Source of the DNA: Auricularia sp. M13
Lineage: Eukaryota; Basidiomycota; Agaricomycetes; Auriculariales; Auriculariaceae
Reading direction: 5' to 3'
Assembly: GCA_037042915.1 (NCBI GenBank)
Contig: CM073204.1
Location: 1,178,001 to 1,242,000, forward strand
Length of the DNA: 64,000 bases
The notes beneath the pieces are model-generated. The model did no database searches, had not been told where the DNA came from, and saw only the letters and a program-made list of their open reading frames with translations. Shown here one piece after another: positions 1-28,389 of the stretch (position 1 is the first letter of the stretch; every line of letters begins with the position of its first letter). Position numbers and translations under genes: made by a program.

Positions 1-3000
1 CACACCTGCGGTATGATGTCCTCGTAGGTGCACTGGCTCCCATGTGTTGAGGTGTGGGGATGCAATGTGGGGGTGCGGGGGACCCAGCACCAGATACACG
101 CAAGAGCGCCGTCGATTTTGACTTGCGCCTTAATCTGGGCATATGTCGCAGGTCCATGCGCTGTTTCGACGCTCGTGTGGACGATGTTGCACAGGCGAAT
201 ACAGCTGGCTGTACCATGGTCGTCGTGTCTGGACCGATCGGCGAGCCAGCACCCGCGGCAGATATTCCTACTCCCATCAACATTTTGTCAAGACTCGCAG
301 ACGTACGAACCTGAGCATCTCAAGGCGGACTTTGAGGTAGTCGTCCGCATTGCGTCTCACCACGGCCTCGGTGTTGAGGAGCTCGGCGCTCACGCGCAGC
401 ACTGCATCGCACGCAGGATATGGCGTTGGCAGGGCAGCCGTTTGAACGATTTGAGAGCGAATGGGTGCCGCACGTGGAGAGATCGCAGCTCCGGGTGCAG
501 GCGCGGAATAGTTTGGCACGCACCGTGAGCATGGCACGTAAAACGTCGGCAGATCGTCACAGCGCTCGCTGCAACCGTCGATATATCGTCCAGAGCCCTG
601 GCGCAAACACGCGCGGTCGTCCTTTAGACACACCATCATCTCACGATGACCGAACATCCCAGGATTCGCAACAGAGTACGTTTTTGTCGGATCCAGGAGC
701 GTGTGAGCCTCGCAATATGTATCTCCGCGCCCGCCACGCCCTGTGCCTTGCACATGCGTGATGTAGTTCCAGCTCGCACCGTACTCGACCACGAGACGCA
801 CGCCCGGAAGATGGTAGCCAGTCGAGAGAAGTGTTGTCGCCACAATGAGCCGGTGGTGCCCCTGCTCCCATCGTCCGAGGGTCGCGGTGCGGTCTTCGGG
901 TGGCAATTTGCCATGAAACGCCTCGCATCCCAGCTGCTGTGCGACCGCGACGGCCTCATCGATCTGCCTCACAAACACAATGCCGCGGTCTGTGCTGCTT
1001 GTGAGTAGACGATCTGCCGTGGTCGCGATGTGGGCGATGAAGTCAGATGTACGCATGCGGAAAACACAGTAGCGGATTGACGCCCGAAGCGACCGCTCGC
1101 GGAACGTCTGAGGCATTGCGATGTCTGCGATGCGGAGTTGCGTCAGAGCCTGATGATAGATATCGACAGGAACGGTGGCCGAGAGGAGGTGGATTGGGAC
1201 CGCGTACGAAGTCAGTTGAGAAGCATCCAGCATAGCAGGACGGTACGACCGATCCATCACCCACGAATGCATCTCGTCGAGGAAGAACCGCCGCAGACGG
1301 TCAGTTGCAGCTAGCTCTCGAACGCAGGCATGAAATTCGTCGGTACTGCCGGTCTCTGGGAGCACAAACGTCAGCTGCTGGAACTGGGAATCCCCGCGCT
1401 TCCAAATGCAGGATGGAACGCCAGCATCGCGGCTTGCGCGGAGGTGCGACTCGGCGAGAACAACCCAGGGTACGTAGACAATCGTGACGGAATGTGGCTG
1501 GTCGAAGTGCTTGCATGGTAGTAGCCACAGCATTGACTTTCCTCCGGCGGTAGGTAGGAAGGTGGCCGTGTGCACGTGCTGTCGCACGATAGCCTCCATG
1601 GCATCACGCTGCGCTGGCGATCGAAACGTGGCCCCGGGGTCGTCGAGAAAGGCGCGTAGAGACGTTAAAAGATCGCGGCCTTTCAAGTCCAGGACGGCGG
1701 CGGGCTGAACTGGAGCACGGGCGGGCGAACCAGCATACATTGGTACATAGCCATGACGCCTGAGTTCGTCGACCACCGCCGCCGCTGTTTGCGCATTTAG
1801 AGATGCAGCCAGTGCGCGCAAGCGAGGCTCTAGTAGAGGCATGAGGTTTGAGGCCAGCGTGGCCTCGTCGACGGCGAGAGCTCTCAAATGCGGAGCCAAA
1901 GCATTCACCACAGCGACTTCGAGTTTGGGATCGTCTGTTCGAGATACGCCGTCCTGCGACATATCCAGAGCTGGTACTGCCTCTGCAGCAGAAGAGAGTG
2001 GCCGGTTCAAGATCTACAAGTTGGTAAGCTGAAGCAACTTCTTTGCGGCGCATACGCGCCTTGTGAACACAACGGCTAAGGGGCAGAAATCGGTTTATCA
2101 GCTCGTCTGTCAGCCCGTTGCGCTCGCGGCCGTAATGGAGCTGCGCAGTGAGAGATGAATGTCCCTCCTGATAGTCGAGGTCGCACTGCAGAGCCGTGGT
2201 CGTAATGTCGATGTCACGTATCAGATGCCGGGCTATGGACATCATGATATGGCGCCAGTCGGATACCGTGAGGCTGATGTCCACGAATCAAATGGAGTAC
2301 TGCTGCATCGTCTTGCTGACCTGCTCCGTGCCGATGTCCTGGCCGAATATGCCTCGGTTCAAGAACTTGTAGCCGTTGAGAACGCTGACCGCGTCGCAGT
2401 CAAATACCTCGGCGGCGAGAAGCTGTGCAAACTTGCGCATGTGCGCGACCTCGCGCTTCACAAGGTCGCCGAGGCCACGGTCCAGTCCGCGAATGATCGT
2501 TCGGTCAAATCCTATTCGCATGAGTTAGCGGTGTGTGTCTGCGGAACCGAGTCCAATTGGCCACGCACCTCCCGTAATCTCGCTAGATTTGTTGTAGTCC
2601 AGCACCCAGAGCATCTCGGGATCGTCTGTACAAATCAGGCTCCGGCGGCGGTCGGCATTAACGATTAGCGTCTGAAGAGCCTCTGTTCCCCGCGGTGGTT
2701 GACCTGCGCACATATGCATTAGAGTCGCGCGGAGCGAGCAGAGCTCAAGGTATCCCTCGCGCCACTCGTTGCATGCGCCTTGGACCCATATTGGTGCGTC
2801 ATTCCCCGGGATGAACCGACAGTACTGGCCGCTGTTGAGCAGTTGCCTGGCGTAGGCGTCGCAAGAAATGTTATTCCCGGGTTCTGACATAAACGAGTAG
2901 CCAGGTTGCAAGTTGGCCGGGTCGTCGCGAAGCACAGGCGGGATCGCCAGCTCCACGCTCGCAGGGTCGGCGTGCCGGCTGAGCAAAGCCATCAACTGGT

Positions 3001-5070
3001 CGGCGCGCGATGATATGGCCTGCACCATGGCCTGCACTGCGCGAAGGGCGACGGTCTGGCCGAGATACCGGAACGACGACCTGTTGCCATTCGCCCAGAA
3101 CACGCGGTCCGGCGAAGCGGTGTGGAGGCTGATGTTGCGAGCGAGGTCATGTACGCTGAACGTGTTTCAGTCGCATTGCACACCCATTTGTACACGCCAC
3201 GTACTATCTCAAGGCGTCAAACGCGTGTGGCTCGCCCACCTTGATCCACCGCAAGTGTTTCGGCATCGCCTGATAGGTTGTTACACCGGAAGTCGCATCG
3301 GCGACAATCTGACGGTAAATAATGCAGCGCGCCGCGTAGGTCAAGGCCGCACTATATGGCGTGAAGAGCGAAGGCGGTAAGAAGTAGCCGTGGTATCAAT
3401 CCAGCGTGACCAAGAATGTGAAGGTCACCAGCGCGGTTGAATAAGGCTTGCGACCGTCATAGCTGTCAGCGATGAGCGCGAGCGCGAGATCGTGAACGGC
3501 GTTGTCGAGAACGGTCTCTCCCACGTTATCCGAGGAGCAGACTGATATCAGGTGCTCAGCAGCAATTCTCTGGGCGTCCGTAAAGCTGAAAGGAGCACGC
3601 TCAGGCTGCTGAGAGTTGCGTACAACATAGCAAACCAGGCGAGAAAATATGCCTCTGTACTTTGCTGTGTTGTCGATGCGCAAAAGAGGGCGTTGGTCTG
3701 GATCTCGACTATTCGAACAGTCAACAAAGGCGCACGTAACATAGTTCTTTCGAGACACACCTCTTACTCCGAACGTGACGCAACACAACATCGTCGGCGT
3801 GGGTATCCAGGAGGTCCACACAGGCGTCGAAGTAGCGCGATGCACCACGGACAAGGACGGCAATCCAGCCTGAGCAGCGCTCCGGCAGTACGGTCAGCTC
3901 GGCACGGGAAATAAGCTCGCCCTGGGTGGAGGATCCTGCGAACATGGCAATACCAGAGCGCGTTAGCCACTGGGATGTGTCCTTCGTCGTCCCACTCAGA
4001 TGGCTGGCACTGCGCATCGTGCCCGGTTTCCTGTCATGGTCATCCAGAACGTTCTGCATCGCGCGATCGGGCTCTTCGGCACGAGAGGGAAGTATGACCT
4101 CGATGTACGTCCGAACTTCGGGTGCGCGATACGGCTGCTGAACGCTCGCGTTCTTGTACGGTAGATGTCCAGAGGCTTCCAGGCTGGCGTGCGACTGCTG
4201 GCGGTGCTGATACACCAGAGACTTCTGATCGAAGCAGGCGTAGTCGCACCCAGGTACCATGCATACGACGCCGTCCTTAACGGCAACTCCAGTGATGGCA
4301 AGCGATCTTGGCGGCGGAAGAGCGGGACTGGGCGCGATTCGATAGCGTTGCAGCCAGTACGCCGCAGTTCCCGAGCGAATGGGACGGTTGTGCTGCGCAA
4401 GATGGCTCTTGTTCGCCGTCGCCGTCGGTAGCAGCGCGAATTCACAGCCGGGCTGAACGCAGATAATCATCCTGTAATAAAGGTTGACAACCAGTCCGAA
4501 AGACTGGATTGTGTGGTCCGTAACCAGTTGGTGAGACTCGGTCGCGTCTGAAACGTCTGACGCAGATACGGGCGACGGTGATGAAGAGCGCACACGTTTC
4601 CTTGCGGGAGAAGCAAGCGGTTGGCTAATCGTAGCTGTAACAGGCGTTTCCTGAGCTGTTAAAGCCGGAGAATCGCCGTTGGAAGAAGATCGTGCACGTT
4701 TCGGGGCAATGCGGTTGGATGCGTATGACTTGTGCTCGGCGAGCGCGAGCGGGATCGACTCTGCGTAAAATGAGCAATAGTCCATCACTAGCCCGCTCTG
4801 CATACCTTTTTGCACGAATTCTTGTGTGGCCAAACTCGTAACCGAAGGGCTAACACCCGAAGGTTGGACGGTCGGAGGTTGAACTGTCCGTCGCGCCTCT
4901 TTCGGAGTTTCAACACGCGTCACCGGCACATCTTTTGCCGCGCCTGTCAGCAAAACAGACCGCGCGCGCAGGTCTTGTGTTGCAAGCGTCTTACCTTGCT
5001 CGCTTGGCGCTCCTCTTATCTGGAACTGGGCAGAACCTGTAGCGCTCGGTGTTGCCACATAAGGCGCCAC
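1..5070 (-). pseudogene. OrsD/DUF3505-type + RecQ-like helicase, copy 1 (disrupted, runs off left edge)
   Basis: Minus-strand multi-exon gene. About 3720-5070 encodes a disordered Ser/Lys-rich N-terminus, then an OrsD/DUF3505-like part with paired Cys and His (IICVQPGCEFALL...H). About 2525-3700 encodes a conserved middle domain (PPRGTEALQTL). Positions 277-2010 encode an SF2 helicase with RecQ-like motifs: FRSPAQRDA, Walker A LPTAGGKS, DEMH box FLDEMHSW, LLSATVP, GIVFVRQ, ATTLLSTGYHLPGVR and the arginine-finger motif QGTGRGGRGD. The C-terminus (1-250) begins a Cys-containing module that leaves the window. The helicase part is open, but the middle domain carries two in-frame stops (near 3396 and 3213) and a frameshift near 3160 compared with copy 2; both stops look like C-to-T changes (CGA to TGA, CAG to TAG). 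Related RecQ-like genes are known next to fungal telomeres. The true start lies upstream of 5070, since no good ATG is visible there. The helicase family is secure; the in vivo role is not. Confidence 0.85.
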
Positions 5071-5696
5071 GCCCGCGCGGTTTTTCTCGGTCGCGCCTGG
5101 AATAGCTGTGACTCGCCTGTCTCGCTCAACGCCCTGAAATATCGACGAGAACGAACCTGGCCTAATATTGCTGTCTTCAACCCCATCTATTTACCAGTAT
5201 GAGTATATCCAGGCCGGCCAAGAGCGCACGTTACTGACCTTTGGCGTGCTTGTTCAGGTGCGTCGCATATGCCGTGTCGGATTTGAACCGTTGGCCACAA
5301 ATTATGCACTGCACGCATTGCTCAATGTTGATTCTACCATATTGACCGCAAAGAACGTACTTTGGTCATTCTTTCGCGCGGCGTAGATGCGGTGTTGGAT
5401 CAAGAGCATGCCAAGGTCCGTAACTCCGGCAACTCCGGTTCCGAGGCCACGCCCGAACTGATCAGCCATTCCCTCCCCGGTCCCCTGCGTAATCATGGAC
5501 ACAGAAAGTCGGACAAATCGCCAAATACATCAGATACGATGTTTCAGAAATCCAAATTATTTTGGTGGGTGCAGCAAATTTCAAATATTAGTCATGGTGG
5601 AGATGATAATCAGCGTCTAGTCCGCGCAGTGCTCCGCCATAAAGTCCCTCTCCCTTCGAGTTTTTGCCCTCGGCCCCCACCGACCCATTTCCCACC
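5071..5696. promoter_or_regulatory. Divergent intergenic region between helicase copy 1 and finger gene A
   Basis: About 0.6 kb separates the 5' end of the minus-strand helicase from the plus-strand zinc-finger gene. I see no convincing coding exon, although a short 5' helicase exon may lie here. Head-to-head placement suggests a shared promoter; this is inference from orientation only. Confidence 0.3.
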
Positions 5697-7910
5697 ATGC
5701 GCACCAGCATTGCGACGACGGCATGCCCGCTCTGCGACATCTCCCTGAATGCTTTCTCGTCCACTATCGCCCGCCACCTCAGAACCAATAAGCACCAGTT
5801 TCCGAAGAAGATGGCCAAGTTACTCGCCGATCGACTCGTCGCCGACGCTCAAGCCGTCTCTTCTGCCTATGTCGGTGGCTTCACCCAGGGCCACGAGGCT
5901 GCTATGAAGGGCATGTCTGCGGTCCCATCCCAGGATCCCAACTTGCAGGGTGAACCCGGGGGTGATGCTGACGCCGAGCACGACGGCGAGCAGGAGTCGG
6001 ACGGCGACGAGGACACGGACTACGACACTCCTTCAGCTCAGAGATACGTCCCAACTCCAATGTCCGAGGACCTTGCCGACACAGACACCAACGCCGACAC
6101 CGCCGATGCCGACACCAACGTCGATACCACTGCCAGTGGTGGCGACGGTGATATGGAGGATGACGACAGCGATCGTGAGGCTGGTACCGGGTCTCCTGGA
6201 ACGGTGCTGACTGCTTTTCTAGGTGTACAAGACGCGGCGACCACGGTCACAGCGCTAGGCACGCCATCAGCTCCTAAGCGCAAGACGCTCGCGGTCATGC
6301 GTGGATCTCCAGCAAAGACAACCCTCGGCCATCGTCCCCGAGAGACCATGGACACCGTGCTTCAGGGCGACTCTCCCAGTCGTCGCCCGCCGGCCCAGAA
6401 GCGCGCGCGTGGTTCGATTACCCCGGTCGAAAACGACCCCTGTGAGTCTCTGTACTACGGCAAATCGCATTGCGCTAATATGCCCAGTTGCGATGAGGGG
6501 CGTTGGCATCATCAATAATGCGCCGTCTACGCAGTTTGTTGCGCGCCGCCCCGGTACGAAGCTATATGCATGTTTGATTTCTCTCTCACCCGGCATTCAG
6601 TCTACTCGCCGGTCCACCAGAATGCTTCCCCGCCGTCCGAGCATATCGAACCTGACTCTTCACAAAGCTCGACGTCTACAATTAGCACCCTCGCCCGGGA
6701 ACTCCGGTGCTAACTCTCGCCGGTACGTGGATGTGCGCACTCGTCGCGTTTGTCCCTGACTCCCCGCAGGTCACCCTCACAACGTTGCTGGCGTGGGGCC
6801 GTCTCAAGGTTCGCCCCTGCATTGTGTTGTCGCAGCGCGTTTAGCCGGCTTGACAGGAACGGCTGATTCGACGGCTCACACTGCGACGTTGGCACCTCCG
6901 GCTCAAGGTGCAGATGGTACTCGGCCCAGCTCATCAGGGATGGCCGGCTCGGCGCCATCATCACCAGGTACTGGCCATCCTCCGTCATTGCATGAACAGA
7001 ATCTCACGATGCCACAGCTCCCCTCTATCCCGGCATCTTTGCCACTGCCGAGGATGTTCAACGCATCCAGACTCACCCCAGGGCACACTATATCGAAATC
7101 ATATTGCCCCATCTCTGCGGCCCAGACCGCATTCGCGGTGAGATTGCCGTCCTCTGAACCGAGAGCGCTCGCTGACGCTTGCGTAGTCTGCCCGCCAGGT
7201 CCAACCGATTGCACCCCGAACGAATTCCCGCTTCTGCCGGCCCACCTGCGTGGTCCAGACTTTGTTCCCCCCTTATACGTCACGCCGCAGGTCTTGGAGT
7301 TCCTTGACGGCATCCATCCCCTCATTCGTCGCCGGGATATCTGCATGAACCATTACGCTCAGGGTATGGACGCCTGCGGGCATGGCGTGTGGCGGTGCCA
7401 GCTGCATGAACCATTACGCTCAGGGTATGGACGCCTGCGGGCATGGCGTGTGGCGGTGCCAGCTGCACGGTGACCAGAACTCCTGGTTCGCCACCGTTCC
7501 GTTTGCCGGCCAGCAGAAACTCCTCCGCGATGTATGTCAGGCTGTTTCTGGTCCAAATGCCGCTAATCCCCAATCAGATCAAGATGACACCGTCCTATCC
7601 GTACATGGACCATGAGCACCGGGTCTGCTTCAAGTGCATGTTCCCCATGTCGCTCCATGTCGATCCCTCCCGCTGCATCTTCCAGGATATCCTCCCCCAG
7701 CTATTGCTCATGTTGTTCCTTCACCGCCGCAATGCCCTCGTCGCCGCTGCAGAACTCCCGGAGGTGGACGACAGTACGACGTTCACTCAATACTGGAGCA
7801 TGCTAAAGCTCGCGGACTCCGATGGCTACCCCAACATTCTCAAGTTTGCTCTTTGGGCCGTCAAATCGCTCGGCGTTGAGACCCTGGGTATTCCTCCTGT
7901 CGCACATTAG
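5697..7910 (+). pseudogene. C2H2 zinc-finger protein with helicase-shared C-terminal module (gene A, frame broken by a tandem duplication)
   Basis: The start at 5697 has a good context (cccaccATG). Exon 1 (5697-6441, donor GTGAGT) encodes a C2H2 finger (CPLCDISLNAF...HLRTNKH), then a long Asp/Glu/Thr-rich acidic stretch and a basic segment. Later exons (about 6600-6707, 6771-7531, 7578-7910) encode a Pro/Ser-rich part, a CMNHY...DACGH motif and a terminal module with CFKC, DILPQ and FTQYWSML. The intron 7532-7577 is 46 nt. A 61-bp direct duplication (7342-7402 repeated at 7403-7463) lies inside the coding exon; being 1 mod 3 it changes the frame. The central and C-terminal parts are paralogous to the gene at 8264-11177, but the PHD array is missing. 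This looks like a truncated tandem copy. The C2H2 finger suggests DNA binding, which is inferred. Confidence 0.65.
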
Positions 7911-8263
7911 GCACTGGTTCCATGATCTGCTTCCCCTCACGCGCGTGCTCTATTCTCATGACTATTTACGCTTATCACGAAGCCTCTCCCCTCGCGACGT
8001 CTATCCTCACGATTCCTTACGAATCTCATCACGAATTACGAATTTCATGACCGTCACTCATGTGTTACGATGCCAATATATGCTTCAGTGGCTGCTGATC
8101 AGCCTTGGCGGCAGCCTATGATAGCCCGGTACCTGTCGGATACTCTAAGAACCGGTGCTCACGGCAATTGCCTATCTTTGTGGTGCACCAAAGCCCTGGC
8201 GACCGTGGTTTCTGCCTCCCATGTGTGTTTCACACTCCGACGCACCTTTCCGACCAATCCCCC
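7911..8263. other. Spacer between tandem finger genes A and B
   Basis: Short spacer with no supported exon. It contains several imperfect repeats of a tcacgaattacg-like string around 7975-8050. It presumably holds the promoter of the next gene. Confidence 0.4.
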
Positions 8264-11177
8264 CATGTTGCCCGCCGGCGCCACTGGCTCTCCCGCACAG
8301 TGCGCACAGTGCTCCCGAGACCTTGCTCCCGACTGCTCGTCGTGCCTATGCCCATCTTGCATGGCTGCCGCTACACCGACACAGCAAGCCGCACGTCTGT
8401 GCGCTTCATGCGACCTGCCTTTCTCATCGTCCGACCCGTCCGAAAGCATCTGCGCCAACTGCTCGGCCGAATTTCTCGGTACGTACAACCATCCGCTGTG
8501 GGCCTTGTGACTTATTCCCCGCAGAGGCCAGCGATCTTAGCCTGTCATCGCCGGTACCCGAGGCTCGTACACCCACGACCAGTCAGTGGCCGCTCACAGT
8601 GTCGACCAACAGCTCATTCATTCATTTAGACACCGTTGATCCCGAGAACACCGAACCCGGCGCTCAATCGGATGTTCGCGTCGCCGACAGGGAGCTCCTC
8701 AAGACCCTACAGGCCCTACCCTCCACGGGCTACATCCACAACATCGTCTATCACATGATGTTCGACTACGAGCTCCTTCGCGGTACGCCGCTTGCTTTCT
8801 GGAGTTTCTTTCCTCACGCTGACCATCCTGCAGAGCGTCCTCCTGATGCCCAACCTCCTCGTGTCGAGCCCGACAAGCTTCCGCTCCCACCACCATATGA
8901 CGAGGACCCACGCCATCCGCTCTACATGGAACGACGCTGCCCCCGTCTTGATTCTATCCTTTTGGCGTTTTGGGAGCCCTGTTCACGCTCAGCTCGCGCG
9001 CCGACATTTGCACAAATCACTACACATCTAGGCAAGATGCAACCGGCCATACGCACAACAATTGCACGCTCACTGGTGCGGACCACGTCCTCGAGGCAGT
9101 CGTCGAGTGGGGGTCGCAGCGGCTGCGATACGCCCAGGTTCGTATTCTGTGACAGTGGCACGCTGGTACTGACCGCGCTCAGATCAAGAACCTTGTGCCC
9201 TTCGATCCGCGAGACTATCTGCACAGCGCACAGTCGGTCTGCTTCCACTGCTACGTCCCCACACCGCTGCATCTGTCGTCATTCAAGACCTGCCCCTTTG
9301 GCGACATCGTTCCACAACTTCTCTTCATGCTTTGGCAACACCAGCGGAAGGCCATGGCCCGGTCACGCTTCCTGCCCGAGGTTGACTCCAGCACCGTCTT
9401 CTCCGAGTACTGGACGATGCTGAAGGCTCCGGAAGACTCGGGCTACCCGAAGCTCCTCAAGTACACAGTCTGGGCCGTCGCCTACTTTGGGCCCGATCCA
9501 CTCGGTTACCCGTGAGCCCACGCCCTTCTTTGCTCTCCCTGAACGCTCACAGTGCATGCAGTGTCAGAAGCGACCAGAAGCGGCGCGGCCGATGCTTCAA
9601 ATGCTTGAAGCCCATCGACATGGACACATCCCATCTTTCCTGTGCCAAATGCAAGCTCAACTTTCACGAGGGTGCGTGCCTACTGCCTTCTGTTTTGGCT
9701 GCTGTTCGCCACGCTCACTGGCTTCTCAGACTGCACTACGCGGCCTCAGCTTCGCGGCGTTGACTGGCTGTGCAGCGCCTGTGGCTGCGAGTATTGCTCC
9801 GCCCCTTACGAACCCATGTTGGAGTGTCGGTTTTGCCCGAGGCGTTGTCATTTCGGTGCGCGGTGTCGTGCTCCGCTACCAGGCGCTAAAATATTCTCAG
9901 CCTGCACCCCACGCCCGGTCCCAATGCACCTCGTCCGCCTGGATGCACAAGGGTCCTCCGTGGAGCCGATGCCTGAAAGCTGGGCTTGCTCGAGCTGCCG
10001 AACCGCCAATGCGGCATGTTGCGGCAAACACATTGAGGGGGACGCTCTCGTGCGCGTCTGCACCGTCTGTGGGTACTCGTATCACGCAGGTGAGTCGCTT
10101 TACCGCATCCTGGTCAGGCCTGCGATTGACCGGATCTCAGACTGCTTCGACGATATGCAGCTCGCCGGAAAACCCCATCTGACTCGAGGCTGGGTTTGTC
10201 ACCAGTGCAATCCCACCCGATGCAGTACCTGTGAGGCCGACCCTCGCACACCAGATGAGCACTTCATCCAGTGTCATATATGCCGTTGGCCTTTTCACGT
10301 GGGTATGTGTGTGTGTTGCTTTCATCGGGCATTGTCTCTGACACATGACAGGTTGCGGTGCTCAGAAACACGGCCTGACTCGGGAAGAGTTCGAGTTTAG
10401 GATCATGGCTACATCCACCTACCGCACCCGTGCTACCATCTACGACTGGACCTGCCGTGACTGTGACTCGTGCCAGTATTGCACGGATTCGCAGTCCTGC
10501 CTGCGCTGGGATCCGCGCCCGCTGCTGCAATGCAAGACATGTCCGGCTAGGTACCATATGGGTGCGCAGAATGTTGTTCTCGCCTCATCCCCAGCTCACC
10601 TGCATCCAGCGTGCGAAGGCAGTGCCGTTGGCCCACGATACATCTTTGCTGCCATTACTGCGCGTTGCCTGGGCGTCGTTGCACCACGATTTTGGAGTTG
10701 CCGTGACTGTCGCAAGAAGACGTGCGCTGGGTGTGAGGCTGCTATCTTGCCAAAACAGCAGGTCTCCGATTGCGACGACTGTGGAGATATCTACCATGCC
10801 AGTGAGTCTTTGGGAGTTTCTGGTCTTAGGCAATGGTCCTTCTCATCCTTCGCATGCAGAATGTGCTGGTCCATGCGACGATTATGGCCTATGGCGCTGC
10901 CCCAAGTGTCCTGACGTCATCTGCGCCCTCTGCCATACCAAACGCGACTCCAATCTTGACCGCTGCAAAATGATCTGCATTGATTGCGGTGACGCCTTCC
11001 ACCCTGGTGAGACCCTCCCATTATCTATCCCCGGGCAGCTCGCATGCTAATCAATCAGAGTGCACACACCCAGCAACGTTCTTCAGTGCCAGGCTGGAGT
11101 TGACGGCCGCAGCCATACAGGACAAACGACGATCGTGCACACTCTATGATTGGAGATGCCAGCGCTGCCGTGCATGA
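8264..11177 (+). CDS. Cys-rich + central module + exon-modular PHD-like finger array protein (gene B)
   Basis: Start chosen at 8264 (MLPAGATGSPAQ), just before a Cys cluster with five CxxC-type pairs. The middle (about 8520-9509) has a CTNHY...DATGH segment and a module with CFHC, DIVPQLL and FSEYWTML, paralogous to gene A and to the helicase C-terminus. An intron at 9510-9559 keeps the frame (GYP|VRSD) and joins it to the array. From about 9565 each exon encodes one finger of the form WxCxxC...CxxC...CxxC...(Y/F)H, with an intron of about 50 nt just after the final His-x-Gly and the next exon opening with a Cys. Seven fingers plus a terminal half finger (DWRCQRC) are visible, ending at 11177. 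The fold resembles PHD or related treble-clef zinc fingers, so chromatin or protein binding is likely. One stretch near 8950 needs an unrecognised intron or has a frameshift. Confidence 0.75.
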
Positions 11178-11839
11178 CCGAGTGTGTTTGTGCTTTTGCG
11201 ACGAATTACTAAGGTTGTGATGTGGTATAATGCCAATGAGGATACAATTATCTATCTACTGCCTAAGTGTCATCAAGGCCGGACCCCGAGGGGTCGCTGG
11301 AACCCAGTTTGAACGGACCGCCGCAGCGCAACCGAGTTTGGAAACTACCGGTCACAGTCGAGGTTCCAGCCGCACAAAATGTCCTCGTGACGAAATGGTA
11401 AGGAAAATGAACGTGTCAAATGGGTAGGGAACAATGTTCTCTTTGTTTTGTCTGCATCTCATAAAGGCCGGACATTCCTGGTGTTCAGTATGCTCGAGTT
11501 GGTGCTCCTCTCGGTTGTTCGGGACAGCACATGCGAGGACGCCAGCAGCAGTCCTCCTCGAGACAAACAGGGATGCGGCACGCAGTGGCTGAATTGGCCA
11601 AGAAGGCAACACATGCGCGTAGACACAGCCGGCCTGATCAGCCGTACCAGCGCACGTGAAGTCACAGCTGGTGCGAGGCCAGGAGGCATAAACCGCGTGC
11701 AGAAAACGGTACATCGCCGGTGCGTCCCTAGCTCGCTGTCGACGACTTCCGTGCCAAGACTGACCTATATGATGTGTTGAAGCAGACAGCAGCTATGAGG
11801 AGATGACGAGCGCAAATCCCCAGTAGTAAGAGCGCAATC
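11178..11839. other. Gene-poor spacer downstream of the finger array gene
   Basis: No coding exon supported on either strand. Open frames here lack recognisable domains. It leads into the 75-bp tandem array. Confidence 0.5.
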
Positions 11840-12535
11840 CTCATGCCCAAGGATACGATTCAGCGCGCCTCAAAGGCTGTGCGCACAATTCCTCAGTAGG
11901 AAATGCACAATCCCCCAGTGCCCAAGAATATGATTCAGCGCGCCTCAAAGGCTGCGCGCGCAATTCCTCAGTAGGAAGAGCACAATCCCCCCGATGCCCA
12001 AGAATATGATTCAGCGCGCCTCAAAGGCTGCGCGCGCAATTCCTCAGTAGGAAGAGCACAATCCCCCAGTGCCCAAGAAGACGATTCAGCGCGCCTCAAA
12101 GGCTGCGCATGCAATTCCTAGTAGGAAGAGCACAATCCCCCCGATGCCCAAGAATATGATTGCACGCCTCAAAGGCTGCGCGCGCAATTCCTCAGTAGGA
12201 AGAGCACAATCCCCAGTGCCCAAGAAGACGATTCAGCGCGCCTCAAAGGCTGCGCATGCAATTCCTCAGTAGGAAGAGCACAATCCCCCCGATGCCCAAG
12301 AATATGATTGCGCGCCTCAAAGGCTGCGCGTGCAATTCCTCAGTAGGAAGAGCACAATCCCCCAGTGCCCAAGAATATGATTCAGCGCGCCTCAAAGGCT
12401 GCGCGTGCAATTCCTCAGTAGGAAGAGCGCAAACCCCCCTGATGCCCGATTAAATACAATTCAGTCAGCGCGCCTCAAAGGCTGCGCGTGCAATTCCTCA
12501 GTAGGAAAAGCACAATCTCCCAGTGCCCAATAATC
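11840..12535. repeat. ~75-bp minisatellite, about nine copies
   Basis: Tandem copies begin near 11851, 11928, 12001, 12076, 12150, 12224, 12300, 12373 and 12450. Each contains cagcgcgcctcaaaggctgc, then caattcctcagtaggaaga, then cacaatccccc. Copies differ by a few bases and small indels, alternating between a 'gatgcccaagaatatga' and a 'gtgcccaagaagacga' version. Open frames through it are by-products of the repeat. Confidence 0.95.
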
Positions 12536-14801
12536 TGTTTCGGCATGAAACAGTGCCGAGTCTGTGCGGTAAAGAGGACGGCGAGGATAATGTTACAGTC
12601 AATTGTCTGTAGCAGCTTGGAAGAGATGACTGAAGCACACACCGGATCACAGAGATTCTGGCACATACAGCAGGGTACAGTTGCACGTACACAAGCTTAC
12701 AAAGTCTCCAAACTTTGCCTCGGTCAGTCTTCACTTCACAAAATATCTCGTTGGGAGCACGCACTCCGGCATCCCACAGTGACCCCCCAAAATGCGCAGT
12801 CAGCGCGTATTAATCTTGTGTTAGTTGGTATATGTTGGTTTTGAAACTGCTATAGCCCATTCTGCCGCAGGTCACAGAATATCAGCTCTATGGTTCCAGG
12901 TGAAAATTGTCTGGAGCGGACGAACTAAGCTGGCCATGGCGCAATAAATGCCCGTGATAACGGAAGGATGGGTTCCACAGTCGTCCGCCATCGCGGGCGC
13001 CGCGACAAAGAACCTGTAGGTGCGTGAGTAGAGAGCTGGATGGTGGGCGGACGCTGACACGATTTCAAACACCGCCCAGGAGTTAACCGATCCGGTCAAC
13101 GGACGGTTGAAGTCACTTTGCCTGATGCTCAGATTCAATGTGAAACAGATATTGGAATCCTATTTAAATTATCACTAAGACTTCCCATGATTTTGAGTGC
13201 AAGCAGCCCTAAAGGAAATGAAGCTGATAGCAACCGCGGCGGGCGAGCAAATCTAATCACTGCAACATTTTGCGCCACTGGGGGCTCATTCAGCGAGTAT
13301 GAGACAGGAATACACAAGGGGACACCGGAAGCAAACTGACGGCACCGGGTTGGTAACCTCTGCAAGGCCATGAGGCAAGACCCATCCATGCTATTTCCGC
13401 GGATATACCTCCGATTTGCTTCCGGAGATCCGCAACTGGCCAGGTTTTAGTCTACCCAAAGGCTTTCTGCATTGGAAATTTATTTTAATGCTCCCAGAAC
13501 ATGTGCACATCCTGCACCTTGCCCAGAAGTCCCAGTAGCTTGCCCAGAAGTCCTCTCTCATAATGGTGATGCATTACGTCAGCAAGCAATATGCATCCGA
13601 GGGATCTGTGAACAAACAGCAATATAGAAAACTGAGAAGGACTCAAACTACATGCAGTTCATTTATTGGTTCCCCTTACAAGCAGAATTGAGCCTCCTGG
13701 GGGCTCTCCGAGCCAATTTGGCCGGGGTCCCGAACCTCTGCAGCGCGAGGTCGGCAGACCCATCCATCCTAACCTGATGTTCCGGATTTTGCCGGCTGGG
13801 TCCCCTTGGGAATACATGGCATTTCGAGATGATATACGAATCCGTTATTATTTTGACGAGATTCCGGCAAATTGACATTGTGCACCTGTAGCGGCAGGTA
13901 CCCAGAGGCAACCAGTGCACCGTTCGGCGGCGTAGAGGGATCGTTGAATCGGCAGTGACGACGCCAATCGAACGGTCCAAGAATCGAGGAAATATGATGA
14001 GAACTGGCCGAACAGTCAGCCAAATTGCACTTGAGCAAAAGTAGCGGCAGATGAGCACGCGTACGGAAAGCACCGTTTGGGGTCGTATAGGGCTTGTTCG
14101 AACCGCGCAATCACTGGCTATCGCACTATATAGAAATTGAACAATACAGCGAAGGAATACACCTGCTGGAGGCACATATCAGGTCATTTCAAAGACACCG
14201 GACGACGCTCAAGCACAAGAAACGCACCGTTCACGGAGATAAAAGGCTCATTTTTACCGCGCGCGCAGGGGATACACAGCGGGGTAGGATTCAAGAGGTT
14301 CGTCCAGGTATTGAGCAAGCTGCGAGCGGAAGCCTCCCGGACAGCAGCCACAGCTCCCAACGGCCAACGGTCAAGCGGTCTTCCGTCACAAGCATTGGAA
14401 ATTATAGCCTACGCTATGCCAATCAAAATGACGTCGAGACCGCCCGAATATACTGAGAATCGAGCGAGCAGCGTGCATATCTCTCCAGCTGGTTCGGCCA
14501 AAGCCCAGCCAAAATCGGGACCAGTCGAAGCAAGCACACGGCACTGTTTGGTGCACCACAGTCAGTAAATCCTGTTTCGGCGTCAAATCCAAGCCTGAGG
14601 CACGTGCCTTGAGTAACGTGAGCAAAGAACCGGTTCGGGTCGTCACCTGAGAAACGGAGCTTGCCGAGACACACTGAATGACATTTAAAGCATAGAATTG
14701 GTTGCAGAATGGGTGTCAGGATGTATATACTTGAATTATCAAGGTATTTCGGGTTTAGTCTCTCTGTCGAGTGAACAATGAATTTCCGGATGGGACAACG
14801 C
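12536..14801. other. Gene-poor region with a diverged protein-repeat-like remnant
   Basis: No complete gene is supported. On the minus strand between about 13140 and 14290 the translation repeats a loose module, (P)xTPPNGAxxx...LPLxxxxxNL, three or four times (near 13880-13960, 14040-14100, 14230-14270 and perhaps 13230-13290). This suggests a decayed repetitive coding sequence or an old tandem duplication. I do not recognise the family. Confidence 0.35.
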
Positions 14802-14850: not shown

Positions 14851-15059
14851 AATGGACTTCGCACAGCGTGAGCAATGGGTCGTCGGCACTGTGAAAAATG
14901 TGATGCAACAGAGCGTGATGTAGGCACTAGACCTGCCTATAGCGCATCGTCGAAGGAGATGCGAGCTGAGCAATTTGGACGAGTGCCCTTCAAGTTGAAT
15001 TCAGCTTTGCAGACAATTACTTGGCTCACAGACTTTTTAAAGAGAATGAAGACCTATAG

Positions 15060-19610: not shown

Positions 19611-21265
19611 TCAGCACCGCAGAAAGAAGTACGCTATTAATCCTACCTTGGGCTGCTTTCCGCGTTTCAGACAACCTAAATAACGTTAGCGCGATGTTGT
19701 GAGACATCGCGATTACTTACAGTCATGCCAGACGCCTAGGCAGGCCGCACATGTAGCGCGTGCTCCATTATCAGACACCTTGACGTCGCAAACCATGCAC
19801 TCGTCCGCTGGACAGTTCCTGCAATGGTAGTCGCTGCCCGCCGCAGGCAGGACGTCGTTCCATACGGTTTCAATACACTCTAAAACCAGGTTCAGTCACA
19901 ATGAAATACTTGCACACGCACGCACGCACCCGTATGATAGTGGTATCCACAGCGAGCACATGAGATCGTCGTCTTGTTGTGCATTTTGTCCTTGCACAAT
20001 CCGCACTGCGTAGGTTTACAGGCGTCGCACCTCCATGTACGTACGCGAAGCACTTCGTTGTCATGCGCCGCCTGCGTTGCAATTAAGATATCGAGGCCCG
20101 GTCGCTTTTTGAGGCATTCTGGCACAAATGTTAGCAACGTCACACGCACATCCAGCAATGTGCACCACATACCAGGGTGCACTCTATGCTCGCAGGTATC
20201 GCATTCCAGGAGAAACGACGTCGGCGCAACAACGACAAGACACACATCGCACGTGCAGCAGCGCTCGCACATCCAATCATGCAGCGTACCGCTGTAATGC
20301 CCCTCCCTCTGCCTCTGTAAGCGAGCGTCGAACATAGCGTCAGGCATTCCCTGCTTTCGGACCTTGCACTCTAGACGTTCCATGGTCAGCATTCCCCTCT
20401 GACACACTCTCGACTGAGCACGCACGTTGATGAAACGCCTTGCTGCATGAACGGCAGAAGACGAAGACGCTCTCTGGATCTCCGGGGAATTCGCCACAGG
20501 CCGCGCACGTATGGGTCTCGCACCGCACGCAGATGGTCGTACCCTGGATTAACGTGGGATTGTCGAAGATAGAGTAACGCGTCGCGCACACTGTCAAACT
20601 GTCAGGCCCTGCACGGTGTCTGGCCCTCGCACGAACCTTTGCAATAGCGGTCTTCGCAAGCAACACATCTGACAGCCAGCACCTCACGTCGCGACGAGCA
20701 GCCTGCGCATCGACCTGCCTGACAACTCTTGCAGTACCAGCGCTTAGCATCGCGAATCGTAGTCACCCCTGGAGGCACTCTGATGGCGTCCGGCCTGGCA
20801 GGCACGGGGCGCAACCTAAATTACAATTTGTCATCACATCGCCTCACAGCCAGCACCTAGCGCCGATGGATGACCACGATGACCACGTACTGAGGTGACA
20901 AGGCTGCTTGCATTCGGCACAGGTCAGCGTGAAGCCGTCGGCCTCGAAGCACTCCTGGCAGCGACACAGCTTGCAATAGAAATCAATGCCGTCGAAGCCA
21001 TCCAGCCATCCTGGCATGCATTCTGAGGCCGTAGTTAGCTCTATTTGCACAAAATATCCCGAATTTACCCACTCGCAGAGGTATGGTATGCCAAGCCACA
21101 ACGTCCGCAGTGCAACGCCAAAGCCGGTGTCCGTGTGAACGCGTCCAAATCGATGTGCAAGTTGCAGACGTTGCAGAACTCGACCTCGGAAGTGCCATCA
21201 GGCGTCGCTGTTGGTGAAATGCCTATCCTCGGCCTGCCAGCCGTCGCGATTTGGCGCGTGGACAT
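19611..21265 (-). CDS. Exon-modular PHD-like finger array protein, copy 2 (5'-truncated)
   Basis: Minus-strand counterpart of the array at 9.56-11.18 kb. Fingers lie at about 21190-21075 (FCNVC...HCGRCGLAYH), 21020-20885 (FYCKLC...TCAECKQPCH), 20815-20640 (WYCKSCQAGRCAGC...CEDRYC), 20590-20440 (ICVRCETHTCAAC...F H), 20380-20190 (WMCERCCTCDVC...CEHRVH), 20115-19940 (WRCDAC...CARCGYHYH) and 19880-19725 (YHCRNC...CLGVWHDC). Introns again follow the His of each finger and the next exon starts with Glu-Cys or similar. A last intron (about 19685-19725) leads to a short tail ending near 19611. Compared with gene B the N-terminal Cys cluster and the NHY/DIVPQ module are absent. It lies 3' of helicase copy 2 on the same strand. 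Finger 3 lacks the usual terminal His pattern, so some decay is possible. Confidence 0.65.
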
Positions 21266-22087: not shown

Positions 22088-25000
22088 TCAACTGCTAATC
22101 ACATCATCTGCAATCGCTAGAAAAGCTCGTATCGAGTTCGTGTGAGTGTCCTCTGATGTACGCGCGCAAACCCACGCCCAATATGCTGCAAACGTGGTTT
22201 CGTCCGTCACTGTAGGGAACTCTCTGGAACGCACCAGAAATGCGCGGCGGATAATCCAACCTCCCAGGCATATCTGAGGCACTATATCCTCGTAGTAGCA
22301 CTCACTGCCATGCCTGGATTCGTAAGGATGAAGTGTTCTGGTGCGCGGGACCCAGCACCAGATGCAGGTCAGCCGACCGTCTACTCTGCACTCCTTCTTG
22401 ATGTGTTCATATGTCTGGAGTCCCTGGGCTGTCTCTAGGGCAGTGTTGACAAGGTTTCCTGCGTGCAGGCAACCCAACGTGGTGTGATCCTTGTGGCGCG
22501 CGCCGGTGCGCAGCCAGCAGCTTCGACACACATCCCTGAAAATATCAATCATGATAAAACCACAGACTACAATCATTCCCACCTTAACATCTCCAGTCGC
22601 ACACGCAGGTAGTTATCGACTTGGACCCGTCGCCTTTCGTTCAAGTCGAGGAGCTCAGCGCTGATGCGCAAGGTCACATCGCACTCTGCATCCATCTTTG
22701 AAGTCTGAACAGGCTGGAGCGTTCGAATGTCCATTCGACGTGGAGGTATTGCTTTTCCTGTCTCGGGAGCGTCGTAGTGGGGTACACAGTTACCACAGGG
22801 CACGTAGTCGGCAGGAAGATCCTCGCAGCGCTCGCCGTATCCATCGATATATCGTGAGGCGCCCTGACGTAGGCATGCTCGATCGCGGCGAAAGCAGTCC
22901 ATCATCTCTCTCTGTCCGAACTGGTTGGGGCTTGCCGTATTGTATGTCTTCTTGGGGTCCATGAGCGTGTGGACCTCGCAGTATGTATCGCCCCGCCCTC
23001 CGCGACCGGTCGCTGCGAATGCGAGATGTAATTCCAAGACGGACCGTACTCGACGACCAGACGAATTCCTGGAAGATGGTAGCCTGTCGACAACAGCGTT
23101 GTTGCGACTATAAGGCGATATTGACCGGATTCCCATGACGCAAGGGTCGCTGTGCGCTCCTCGGGAGTGAGTTCACTGTGAAACGGCTGACAGCCCAGTT
23201 TTCGCGCGACCTCAGCTGCTTCCACAATCTGTCGGACAAAGACAATGCCACGGTCACCGTCCGCCGTCAGCAAGCTCGTCGAGGCAGTCATGATATGACT
23301 GATAAAGTCAACCTCCGGCATCTCCAGAACGCAGTAACGAAGTGAGCGTCGGACGGAGCGCTCACAAAACGCGTGGCGCAGCAATATCGGCTATGTGCAG
23401 TTGCGCCAGCGCCTGGTGATAGATCTCGATTGGCACCGTGGCTGACAGCAGGTGAATGGGGATGCCATACGAAGACAGCACCGATGCGTCCATCATCGCA
23501 GGCCGGTATGAACTGTCCATAACCCAGGAATGAACCTCGTCAAGAAAGATGCGGCGTAACCGATTCGTCGATGCTAGCTCTCGAAGAGAGGAGTGAAATT
23601 CGTCTGTAGAGCCAGACTCGGGTACGACATAGGTGACCCGCTGGAAGCGCGGATTCTCTCGTGTCCAGATGCATGCTGGGACCGCGTGCTGAAGGCTAGT
23701 TCGTAAGTGTGATTGCGCCAGGACCACCCACGGCACGTAGACGACAGTAACATCGGTCGACTGATCATAGTGCGCGCAGGGTAGCAACCACAGAAGCGAC
23801 TTGCCTCCTGCAGTGGGTAGGAATGTTGCCGTATGACTCTTGTCTCGAACAATAGCCTCGAGCGCACTGCGCTGTGACGGTGAGCGGAAAGTCGCACCTG
23901 GAAGATCCAGGAAGTCACGTAAAGAGCTAAGCATGTCTCGGCCCTTGCGATCCAGAACGAGGGCGGGACGATGCTGCACATCCAAGCGTGGAGCGGGGTA
24001 GAGCGGAATATAGCCGTGGCGACTGAATGCATCAACGAAAGCAGCGGCCGCTTGCGCTGTCAGAGACATCGCCAGCTCTCGCAGACGGGGTTCAATCTGA
24101 GCCATGAGGTTGGAGGCGATCGCGGCCTCGTCGACGGCTAGAGCTCCAATCTGCGGCGCAAGCGTCGCAGAGACGTGCTGCGCAACAGACGCAGGATCCA
24201 CCAAGATCTGACGCGGCGTTTTAGTCTCCTCGTCCGCATCCGGTGCTGGGATGCTGTCTGGTGCCATCGCCAATGGCCGCTTTAGGATCTTTACACGTTA
24301 TCATATCAGCGCCCACCGCATCAGCTGATTGGAGAAATTCACTCCCCTTATGAACACATCGGCTCAGCGGTAAAAACCTATTGATTAGCTCGCTCGTCAG
24401 GCCGTTGCGCTCTCGTCCATAGTGGAGCTGGGCCGTCAACGACGAATGGCCCTCCTGGTAGTCTAGGTCCTCTTGTAGCAATGCAGTGGTCGCCACTTCC
24501 TGGTCACTGATAAGATGCCGAGACATCGAGGCCATTATGTGGCGCCAGTCGGAGACAGTGAGCTCGAGTGCTACGTGTTCCGCAGCGTATGCTCTCATTG
24601 TACTGCTCACGACGTCTGTTGAAATGTTCGTGTCGAAAATGCCGCGATTGAGATATTTAGACCCGAGAAGAATCGAGGAATCGGGGCAGCAGAACACGTT
24701 GCCGGCCAGAATTAGCGCGAATGCGCGCAGAGAGACGATGTCGAGTTTCACCAAGTCGCTCAGCTGTTTGTCCAGGCCACGGATGATTGTACGGTCGAAT
24801 CCTGGGTGTGCATATAGTGAGTTCAATCATGTGAGCCGTCAGGTATCTCCGTACCTCCGGTAATCTCTCCAGACTTGTTATAATGCAGAACCCAGAGCAT
24901 CTCGGGGTCGTCCGTCACTATCAAACTCCGTGGTCGATCCGCATTCACCATGAGCGTCTGCAAGGCCTCTGTGCCTCGGGGTGGTTGTCCGGCGCACATA

Positions 25001-27460
25001 TGCATCAGCGTCGCACGAAGCGCCGAGAACTCGAGGTAATCGTGTCGCCATTCGGTACAGGCCGCCTGGTTCCAGACTGGTGTTGCCTTCCCCTGCAACC
25101 AAGTACAGAACCTCCCGCTAGCCAGCATCTGCCTCGCAAACGCCATCGAGTCAAGACCATTGGTGGGTTCCGACACAAACGAATAGCCAATCTGAATGTT
25201 TGCCGGATCGTCGTGCAGGACGTTCGGGATTGCCAAGACATTTGAGTCGCCAGCGTAGCGAGTGAGTCGAGCCAATAAATCATCCAGCTGCGAAGCCATA
25301 GCCTGCACCATGACTTGGATGGAGCGTATGGTAATGCTGTGTCCCCGATATCGAAAAGATGAGCGATTCTTAGCCGTCCAGAACACTCGATCTGGAGATG
25401 CAGCGTGAAGGCTAATATTGCGTGCGAGCTCGTGGAATCTGTGCCGCACGTTAGCCGCGTTGCATGATGGACACTGTACGTACTGGCGCAGCGCTTCGAA
25501 AACATGAGGCTTTCCGACCTTGACCCAGCAAATATGCTCCCCCATGGCTCTGAACGTTGTGTTGCCCGGGAGGTCGCCATCCTGCACGATCTGCATGTAA
25601 ATCACACAGCGAGCCGCATATGATAAGGCTGCGGTATATGGTGTAACCAGCGCAGGCGGCAGAAAGTGGGCGTCGAAGCGGTCGAGGCTAACGAGTATAG
25701 TAAACGCCATGAGCACGGTGGAGTGCGCAGCGCGTCCGTCGTATTCATGCGCGATGAGCGAGAAGGCCAGGCGATGCACTGCATTCTCCTTGTCCTTTAT
25801 GCCCGCATGCTTCTCGCGGCAAAGGGCTGCAAGCTCCCTAGCTGCTACGCCCTGCTCAGCCGTCAGTAAACAGCCGCAAGGCCCTTGGTATTCAGCCATC
25901 CGCATGGCAAAGCCGATGAGGCGCGTAAAAATGCCGCGGTATTTTGCGAAATTGTCAATGCGTGAGAGCGGGCGAGAATCCACTCCGGCACTAGATTCTT
26001 GCTCAGTTTACTCGAATATTCTCTAATAAACACTCACGTTTGGCTACGGATGTGACGCAGCACTAGATCATCTGCTCGTGCATCGAGCAGCGTGATGCAG
26101 TTGTCGAAGTATCGGTCAGACGAATCCGCAAGAACCGCAAGCCAGGATGGCCGAGGATTGGGATACACCGTCAGCTCGCTCTGAGCAATGAGCTCGCTCT
26201 GGGTGAATGGTTTCGAGAAGGATGCAATACCCGACCTCACGATCCATTGTGAGCTATCCTTCACGTTCCCGGCGACATTGGAAGAAGCGCGCTCTTGGCG
26301 TAGACGCTCCTCATGACCGTCGATGAGGCTGGAGATATTCTGCACCGCGGCACGTTCGGGCTGAGGAGCCACATCAATGTACTGCTTGTGTCGTGGCGAG
26401 CGGTACGGCTGCTGGACCCGAGCCGTGCGATACGGTAAATTGCTCAGTTCTGGATGACACTCGCCGCGGTGCCTCGTGCGAAGCCGATCGACATCCACAG
26501 CTGCAAATGTGCAATGGCCAGCCGTGCAGCGGGCACCCGAAGCAATTGCCACTCTGTCGATCGCAGCGCTTCCGGGTGGTGGCACCACAGGCTCGTCCGG
26601 TATCGCGTAGCGCTGAAGCCAGGCTGCCACGACTTTCTCCTCCAACGCCTGACCATGTCCCGTTACATGTGCAGAAATGGCGCCTGCAGTCGGTGTCACC
26701 GCATACTGACAACCATCTTCGACGCAGATGATCATCTTATAGAATAAGTTGACCACGAGGCCGTACGACTCGATCTCCGGATCGTTGCAGAGCTGGTTTG
26801 ACGCATTGTAGGTTGCTGAGTCGTGTCTTTCTGCATCTGTCTGTGGCGATTTTGCTGCATTGGGCGTCGGCGATTCGGATCCAGGTCGAGGACGTTTTCG
26901 TGACTCTGAATCAGCTGAGGAGCGACGACGCCGACGTGAAGTAGCGTCTGCTGTGGTTCTAATAGGGGCTGCACCTGAAAGGAACGTTCAGTTCCATTGC
27001 TAATCATGCACGCCAGATTTTAGCTCACCGGCTTTGCTGCCAATGTCTTCTTCCTCGTTATCTTCGCCACCGTCCTTGTTGCTAAACGCTGGGGCCTGGT
27101 CTGTGGTTTGCCCTTCAGCATTCACCCTTTGCGATTGCAGCCAAAACACTCACCGTCAGTCGTGCAGGCCTGCCGGGAGTTCCGCATAACGGTCTCTGGC
27201 GCGCGGTCTGTCTCCTCTGTTTCCATAGTTTGCGACTGCCGCTTTCAATGCATACACAATGACTCACCTCGATGGACGTCCGTATCCCCAGTAGTCCGTA
27301 TATTCGTTGCGCCGCCTGGGTCGGGTGCCATAGCAGGAGTATCCCTCCCATGCGCAGCTGCCAATACATCAATCGCGCGCGCGAGAGTTGCTCTACAGAC
27401 ATACCTTGCTGTGCAGCGCCATGAGCCCGGGATTCTGCAGCGTTGTCAGTTACATACATT
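22088..27460 (-). pseudogene. OrsD/DUF3505-type + RecQ-like helicase, copy 2 (two frameshifts in helicase core)
   Basis: Paralogue of the gene at 1-5070 with the same domain order. About 26034-27000 encodes a Ser/Arg-rich N-terminus and the OrsD/DUF3505-like part (IICVEDGCQYAVT...H); 24823-25983 and 24221-24801 encode the middle domain; 22583-24273 the RecQ-like helicase (LPTAGGKS, FLDEVHSW, LLSATVP, GIVFVRQ, LLSTGYHLPGIR, TGRGGRGD); 22088-22535 the C-terminal module (CIWCW, YYEDIVPQ, FAAYWAW). Clear introns lie at 24802-24854 (53 nt) and 22536-22582 (47 nt). Against copy 1 a 2-nt loss near 23373 and a 1-nt loss near 23008 break the helicase frame, the latter next to motif VI. The N-terminal half, broken in copy 1, is open here. 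Exons upstream of 27000 are uncertain. Confidence 0.85.
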
Positions 27461-28072: not shown

Positions 28073-28389
28073 TCAGGGGCGGCAGCGCATACATTTCCAA
28101 TCCCAGAGCGACCCAGAACGTCTCCTGTCTGCGATACCAATGTCCTGCAGCGTGTCGTAGGCTTCCCAGGCGCCGGCGGCTCTAGTGCATTCTAAGGGAC
28201 GGGTGAGCAGCAGCTTAAAAACACAGCAGATGCTCACCGCGATGGTACGAATCGCCGCACTCCACACATATCAGTTTCTTGTGCTCGCGCCCGTCCGGCC
28301 GAATGGTCTTGCAATGTAAGCATTTCTCCAACGTACAGCTGGAGCATTTCCATTGGCCACGAGATGCCCCGGCACCTGCGCATTCTGTC
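28073..28389 (-). pseudogene. PHD-array gene remnant: last finger and terminal half finger (copy 3)
   Basis: Minus-strand exons encode ECAGAGASRGQWKCSSC...ICVECGDSYHR, then an intron of about 45 nt starting GTGAGC, then ECTRAAGAW...LWDWKCMRC and a stop. This aligns closely with the last finger plus terminal half finger of gene B (ECAGPCDDYGLWRCPKC...CGDAFHPG; ECTHP...LYDWRCQRC). Only about 12 nt of the preceding intron remain before a TTAGG array; no other fingers follow upstream. So this is the 3' end of a third array gene. Confidence 0.75.

Follow-up and report, generated by a model that had tools for sequence, protein, structure and literature searches.

A candidate multi-gene cassette of an OrsD/RecQ-like helicase and PHD-like finger arrays, duplicated in the genome of Auricularia sp. 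M13

Introduction

Two genes for large OrsD/RecQ-like helicases in a 64,000-nucleotide stretch of the Auricularia sp. M13 genome each adjoin a gene encoding a tandem array of PHD-like fingers, which raises the question of whether helicase and array protein are functional partners or have been carried along together. The stretch, hereafter the window, comprises bases 1178001-1242000 of contig C12 (CM073204.1; 1,246,538 bases) in assembly GCA_037042915.1, which holds 52.1 Mb in 14 contigs. We estimate a probability of about one half that these genes make up a multi-gene cassette centered on a helicase of the telomere-linked RecQ kind, equipped with chromatin-reading partners and duplicated among chromosome ends, whose selected role would be to bring the helicase to particular chromatin. 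The content, order and linkage of the genes in the four detected copies, a domain common to the partners, a synonymous bias in their substitutions and the decay of individual copies were read directly from the genome and are described below.

The presence of RecQ-like genes at fungal chromosome ends is already established. In the available portions of the respective reports, RecQ genes are placed near some telomeres of Ganoderma leucocontextum (PMC10817607), OrsD is reported with the UTASb class in Ustilago maydis (PMC10532341), a member from U. maydis has a ratio of nonsynonymous to synonymous substitution rates (dN/dS) of 0.342 (PMC7593156), and the subtelomeric RecQ proteins of Agaricus bisporus var. 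burnettii, like those of other fungi, are described as lone cores with no domain beyond the helicase core (PMC7473861). Such helicases occur in many fungi, with a role that is unclear. Our searches of the open-access literature brought up no helicase reported to have a PHD-array partner. A linked finger-array partner and a domain common to both would offer a testable idea of how these helicases are targeted and how their genes persist at chromosome ends.

Helicase genes and finger arrays

Genome-wide scans identified four helicase copies: genes 1 and 2 in the window (Table 1), one copy near the start of contig C2 (C2:62735-68104) and one in the middle of that contig (C2:2599181-2603680). The pairing was tested genome-wide in a single species, that of the window's own assembly, and the genome-wide match counts are lower bounds, with scoring covering the best candidates only. 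Helicase and array genes were modelled with a purpose-written protein-to-genome aligner, and the models of the array genes are imperfect.

The order of domains in the helicase is OrsD, an unclassified middle domain of ~510 amino acids, a RecQ-like core and an unclassified C-terminal domain. When the two window helicases were scanned exon by exon with Pfam, OrsD (PF12013) scored 30.1 and 29.9 bits against a cut-off of 26.6, and DEAD and Helicase_C were above cut-off in both; a scan of the whole genome with the OrsD profile made this domain visible at two of the four helicase loci. Judged by its sequence matches, the core appears to be RecQ-like rather than typical RecQ. Among 52 sequence matches in the PDB, the top 14 are to RecQ1, to RecQ5 or to entries whose only name is ATP-dependent DNA helicase, and TIGR00614, the best NCBIfam model for two whole cores, scores 58.8 and 63.0 bits, far under its cut-off of 219.8; for one exon of helicase 2, DpdF outscores TIGR00614. 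Five intron positions match between the modelled copies. At intron 4 a one-base shift is needed in three of the models, those of both window genes and of the C2 start copy; given a GC donor, the C2 start copy is in frame across this intron, and the mid-contig copy has GT at the same site.

The finger arrays are of two types, B (gene B of the window and its duplicate on C2) and T (the window array 3' of helicase 2 and three more). The array part of gene B contains seven tandem C4H cores, whereas 2000 shuffles that preserve composition average 0.23 and never exceed 2. Two of its spliced fingers are full C4HC3 with WxCxxC, and the array matches the Pfam PHD family (PF00628) in three stretches, at 29.8 bits with a cut-off of 24. 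The first finger pair had 0 matches at E<=0.1 when compared with PDB using phmmer. The models of type-T arrays have three to five cores each, four of them in the window array.

Linkage and gene order

Each of the four helicases is followed on its own strand, after 1.1-2.5 kb, by a T array; that of helicase 1 is situated beyond the window (C12:1175366-1174187). The initial annotation had noted an OrsD-RecQ-like helicase next to a PHD-array gene at both window loci, and this is borne out by the Pfam matches, by the core counts and by the pairing of 4 of 4 copies in the genome. The different relative orientation that it described does not hold, because the type-B pairing of helicase 1 had been compared with the type-T pairing of helicase 2, that is, two different types of array.

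The array matches found in the genome (8 with a type-B exon as query, 10 with a type-T exon) are all at most 10 kb from a helicase, and the zone thus defined around the four helicases amounts to 97 kb, or 0.19% of the genome. Within this genome, helicase and array thus lie within 10 kb of each other more often than expected by chance. A control scan with PF00628 gave 17 genome matches, one being the array of helicase 2 and 16 lying elsewhere; this control is insensitive, since scanning exon by exon catches just one finger of the present arrays. For three independent arrays placed at random, the probability that all of them fall in the zone would be ~6e-9, but the copies are not independent, and the better argument for a partnership is the persistence of gene order at diverged loci.

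The locus of helicase 1 (locus 1) is part of an inverted segmental duplicate of ~20 kb, in which C12:1173353-1195541 corresponds to C2:71801-52003 with 89-92% identity in the three largest blocks and 85% and 79% in two smaller ones. Since this pair of loci is one segmental duplicate, the recurrence of the association reflects duplication of a cassette and not independent pairings. We also considered that the two regions might be a haplotype duplicate and rejected this, as the matches between C12 and C2 beside the helicases are confined to the two segments just given among the stretches compared (C12:1158001 to the contig end against C2:40001-80000, and C2:1-10000 against the window and the C12 end, with C2:10001-40000 left out).

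Two further genes, F1 and F2, lie between helicase and T array at two of the four loci. The order and strand helicase-F1-F2-T are kept between the mid-contig C2 copy and locus 1, where F1 is 42% and F2 47% identical, and this conserved order suggests, on sequence comparison, that the loci descend from a single ancestral cassette. F1 and F2 share 27% identity with each other over 175 residues. Neither matched a Pfam family at E<=5, and both are F-box-like by eye alone (LPxEL...).

These data bear on a second explanation, in which a subtelomeric block that happens to hold helicase, F-box-like and array genes is shuffled among ends, the copies being young or the ends recombining blockwise, and no functional link exists between the genes. 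Chromosome ends exchange blocks, locus 1 and C2:52-72 kb are one such segmental duplicate (~20 kb, its three largest blocks 89-92% identical), and the copies decay, all of which this passive hitchhiking accommodates. However, linkage and order persist where the middle domains of two other aligned copies are 72% and 63% identical to that of the C2 start copy and where F1 and F2 have diverged to 42-47%, far past what young duplicates would exhibit, and the mid-contig copy retains the order away from a contig end. We regard hitchhiking as possible and clearly less probable than a partnership.

A domain common to helicase and array gene

The last ~90 residues of every helicase copy, with the pattern CxxC...C...D[IV][IV]PQ...W..R...TTF..YW, have a homologous domain in gene A, which is divergent from helicase 1, and another in gene B, directly before the fingers. 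In a comparison of 3996 translated segments without composition adjustment, the scores are 42-50 bits (E 3e-7 to 8e-10); the gene B region scores 43 bits, compared with a maximum of 28.1 in 2000 shuffles, and hhalign gives a probability of 96%, from shallow alignments. In the same comparison the type-T arrays had no match to this domain. Searches of Pfam, PDB sequences and PDB folds produced no significant relative, the last with an AlphaFold model of middling quality (predicted local distance difference test, pLDDT, 63).

Passive hitchhiking does not predict that helicase and gene B share a domain. This domain links gene B to the helicase more closely than neighborhood by itself would, and it is the strongest of the new connections between the partners. 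Both the unclassified shared domain and the constrained region of ~510 amino acids without known fold can now be subjects of classification.

Throughout the genome the shared domain occurs in the four helicases, twice in gene A, twice in gene B, and in a fragment on contig C11. The lone C11 fragment led us to reject the domain as a mark of cassettes alone. The region C11:1371501-1378500 itself contains a tandem duplication with 4.4 kb spacing and inverted repeats, with 99.8% identity over 2.5 kb seen twice.

Selection and decay

Locus 1 and its C2 duplicate are separated by a synonymous divergence (dS) of about 0.18. Over this distance the helicase has dN/dS of 0.093 in the middle domain and 0.081 in the RecQ core, gene B has 0.169 (0.156 in its array part), and the T array has 0.20, so both partners show the synonymous bias typical of purifying selection. 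Such low ratios indicate that constraint probably acted on the genes during most of the period after duplication. The values for the helicase and gene B are again at odds with hitchhiking. Transitions between the duplicates fall at CpG in 429 of 806 cases, a share that would fit methylated repeats.

The initial annotation had suggested a functional or co-mobilised pair. Partnership in all four copies, synonymous bias in both partners and a domain common to the helicase and one array protein support this suggestion in part; independent recurrence of the pairing is not supported.

A number of observations weigh against the partnership described here. Other parts of the duplicate are under weaker constraint (C-terminal shared domain 0.30, helicase N-terminus 0.38, gene A 0.47). 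Both window helicases are broken: helicase 1 has two in-frame TGA codons, and in helicase 2 the reading frame is broken twice within the RecQ core and a stop occurs in the doubtful first exons. The stops in the window copy of the duplicate are probably recent, or may alternatively be sequencing errors. The model of the mid-contig copy starts inside OrsD and lacks the N-terminal part, where it adjoins a satellite of 1.4 kb. In each duplicate the gene B model has one or more stops as well as frame breaks, which probably reflect missed introns, and the models of gene A and of one T array likewise require frame breaks. The T array of helicase 2 reaches 22.9 bits to PF00628, under the cut-off of 24, and that of the mid-contig C2 copy had no PHD match at E<=5 in Pfam, these being the two T arrays for which the cut-off was checked. 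F1 was not seen in the C2 start duplicate, and neither F1 nor F2 at the locus of helicase 2. The C11 fragment of the shared domain (C11:1.37 Mb) is present in two copies at 4.4 kb spacing with no helicase or array in the 7 kb read. Since the linkage is known from one genome and the copies are related by duplication, independent retentions are few, at best three loci. Finally, chromatin reading by the array fingers and assembly of a complex with the helicase are predictions from sequence.

Taken to its extreme, such decay could mean that the entire set is dead subtelomeric junk whose apparent conservation comes from gene conversion between copies. The stops and frame breaks in both window helicases agree with this, as do the broken gene B models in both duplicates, the truncated array at 28 kb and a perfect 61-bp tandem duplication in the window copy of gene A (7341-7467, a 61-column gap against the C2 duplicate), which likely breaks the frame of that gene. 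Against this, the C2 start helicase copy is open, with 0 stops or frame breaks, if the GC donor at intron 4 is accepted, and the substitutions accumulated over a dS of 0.18 strongly favor synonymous sites, a bias that conversion by itself does not create. We therefore consider this explanation very improbable.

The satellite of 1.4 kb mentioned above occupies C2:2592946-2599125, beside the mid-contig cassette, and it makes up the greater part of the initial 5 kb of contig C4 as well (up to 94% identical).

Position in the chromosomes

A subtelomeric module had been offered as one example of such a pair. A subtelomeric position agrees with three of the four helicase copies, which lie at most about 75 kb from a contig end, and with TTAGG tracts pointing outward; it fails for the fourth, which is located at 2.6 Mb of the 5.18 Mb contig C2, beside satellites, and which adds to the points against a chromosome-end cassette. 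The contig ends close to the three copies carry no terminal telomere repeat, the assembly containing no telomere at the C12 end or the C2 start. TTAGGG was rejected as the telomere repeat, having two internal sites only; TTAGG proved to be the right repeat and is the terminal repeat at the C2 right end.

Interstitial TTAGG tracts occur near two of the three end-proximal places and are oriented to the respective contig end. A TTAGG 20-mer has 208 + 215 hits in the genome (423), many of them internal (e.g. C1:8998548-8998636 and C2:2614741-2614797), and because short TTAGG blocks occur at so many internal places, a lone tract is weak evidence. The internal block at C2:2614741 sits in repeat-like sequence. 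At C2:48.7-50.0 kb an open frame of unclassified kind runs, after a frame change, into a stop codon, and TTAGGG/TTAGG repeats oriented to the start of the contig come directly after it.

The third array remnant reported near 28 kb was confirmed and is the 3' end of a type-B array gene; it is closer to the type-B 3' end (score 165) than to type T (98), and it ends a few bases before the (TTAGG)4 tract (Table 1). Positions 28401-28504 take in 14 bases of the tract and the 90 that follow; an identical sequence, likewise with TTAGG repeats, lies near the right end of C2 (C2:5173229-5173332). The simplest reading is that an array gene was broken, capped by telomeric repeat and later buried under more sequence. 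The segment 28395-28504 is a junction of the type seen at chromosome ends.

The middle domain

The region of ~510 amino acids between OrsD and the RecQ core had no family match in Pfam, PHROGs, NCBIfam or PDB sequences. It does contain RGTE, K, RH and GHSSLTA(Q/S)LHY in the order of what we take to be the active-site consensus of tyrosine recombinases, with the key residues invariant in all three aligned copies. This raises a third explanation, a transposable cassette whose large protein would combine recombinase and helicase, with a divergent tyrosine recombinase as middle domain and PHD arrays that steer integration.

Besides the invariant candidate catalytic residues, the spacing from H to Y is that of XerD, which the motif letters also resemble, and few parts of the protein are as constrained as the middle domain (0.093). 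A loose R-K-R-H-Y pattern fits 3 of 3 copies and 259 of 60000 shuffles, and a strict one fits 1 of 3 copies and 0 of 60000 shuffles. However, both patterns were composed after viewing the sequence, and among five control recombinases XerD fits both, FimB and FimE the loose form alone, and lambda Int and Cre neither. All profile comparisons are negative, including hhalign against five recombinases; the AlphaFold model, with a pLDDT of 38, cannot be used, and a fold search with it found no significant match. When relatives were sought by pattern, 41 viral-contig and 48 prokaryotic-contig stretches matched, and 0 were confirmed. By eye, over ~120-150 bases per end, the ends of the 20 kb duplicate have no obvious terminal repeat or target duplication. 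Tyrosine recombinase was thus rejected as the identity of the middle domain, without profile or structural support, and kept as a minority reading, and we consider a mobile element of this kind unlikely. Slightly less probable again is its most elaborate form, in which the large protein would be a fusion of zinc finger, tyrosine recombinase and RecQ-like helicase and, together with PHD-array and F-box-like partners, would constitute a self-spreading chromosome-end element whose chromatin readers choose the recombination sites. If true, this would be an element class uniting a site-specific recombinase, a helicase and a histone reader.

A proposed mechanism and its relation to known systems

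In the reading that we prefer, a helicase cassette with chromatin-reading partners, the core consists of the OrsD/RecQ-like helicase, then F1 and F2 on the same strand (at two of four loci), then a T protein with three to five PHD-like cores; locus 1 and its duplicate carry the divergent genes A and B in addition, B with seven cores. The cassette would spread by duplication and by ectopic recombination between chromosome ends, after which copies would decay one by one. Its selected role might be that the RecQ-like helicase is brought to particular chromatin, probably chromosome ends. Reading of histone tails would fall to the PHD-array protein; the shared domain, of which both partners have paralogous versions, might keep the complex assembled or bind DNA or a partner common to both.

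As far as the available texts describe them, fungal telomere-linked RecQ helicases resemble the present genes in the RecQ-like core, in OrsD (UTASb), in multiple copies (mostly near chromosome ends there, mostly near contig ends here), in truncated copies and in purifying selection. Unlike the lone cores described for A. bisporus, those found here have a domain of ~510 amino acids, a C-terminal domain common to neighboring genes and a PHD-array partner, and unlike the chromosome-end location given for the telomere-linked helicases, one copy here is mid-contig.

Compared with PHD finger proteins (PF00628), the type-B array has two fingers that are full C4HC3 with WxCxxC and lies above the Pfam cut-off; it differs in having seven tandem cores spread over exons and an unclassified domain before them, and the T arrays tested are under the cut-off. 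The Y' subtelomeric elements of yeast are a helicase-coding chromosome-end repeat spread by recombination, and the cassette would be like them in this; the helicase context is different, and we know of no PHD array in Y' elements. KDZ transposons with CxC clusters are similar in their cysteine-rich arrays, and an array here has a weak match to CxC5 (13.8 bits, cut-off 26.9); unlike those transposons, no KDZ transposase was matched in the proteins scanned with Pfam.

Features of the window

Coordinates of the features are collected in Table 1.

Table 1. Features of the cassette loci in the window (positions in the window; strand relative to the window)
Feature	Position	Strand	Remarks
Helicase gene 1	1..5190	-	runs past left window edge, spliced-model end at ~window -178; spliced model and Pfam
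Helicase gene 1, OrsD	about 4189-4485	-	
Helicase gene 1, middle domain	about 2060-3708	-	unclassified
Helicase gene 1, RecQ-like core	280-2013	-	
Helicase gene 1, C-terminal shared domain	1-269	-	~180 bases more beyond window
Gene A	5697..7907	+	divergent from helicase 1; C2H2-like motif at start (by eye); shared domain about 7617-7907
Gene B, type-B PHD-array gene	8239..11169	+	shared domain about 9153-9512, then 7 PHD-like finger cores about 9569-11169; several exons
75-bp tandem repeat	11812..12541	.	just 3' of gene B; also behind gene B duplicate, C2:55337-56189
Type-T PHD-like array	19933..20972	-	3' of helicase 2, same strand as helicase 2
Helicase gene 2	22088..26987	-	OrsD, middle domain, RecQ-like core, C-terminal shared domain; exons 5' of 26987 uncertain; spliced model and Pfam
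Helicase gene 2, C-terminal shared domain	about 22091-22534	-	
Array remnant, 3' end of type-B array gene	28081..28384	-	cut off at telomeric repeat
Interstitial telomeric tract (TTAGG)4	28395..28414	+	TTAGG strand points to near C12 end

A Pfam scan of 10 other open reading frames of the window gave 0 matches. Tandem repeats are present at 17877-18684 and 28874-30330 (16/162-bp and 195-bp units), and a repeat of ~1 kb, 97% identical between its copies, occurs at 30603-31601 and 59205-60201.

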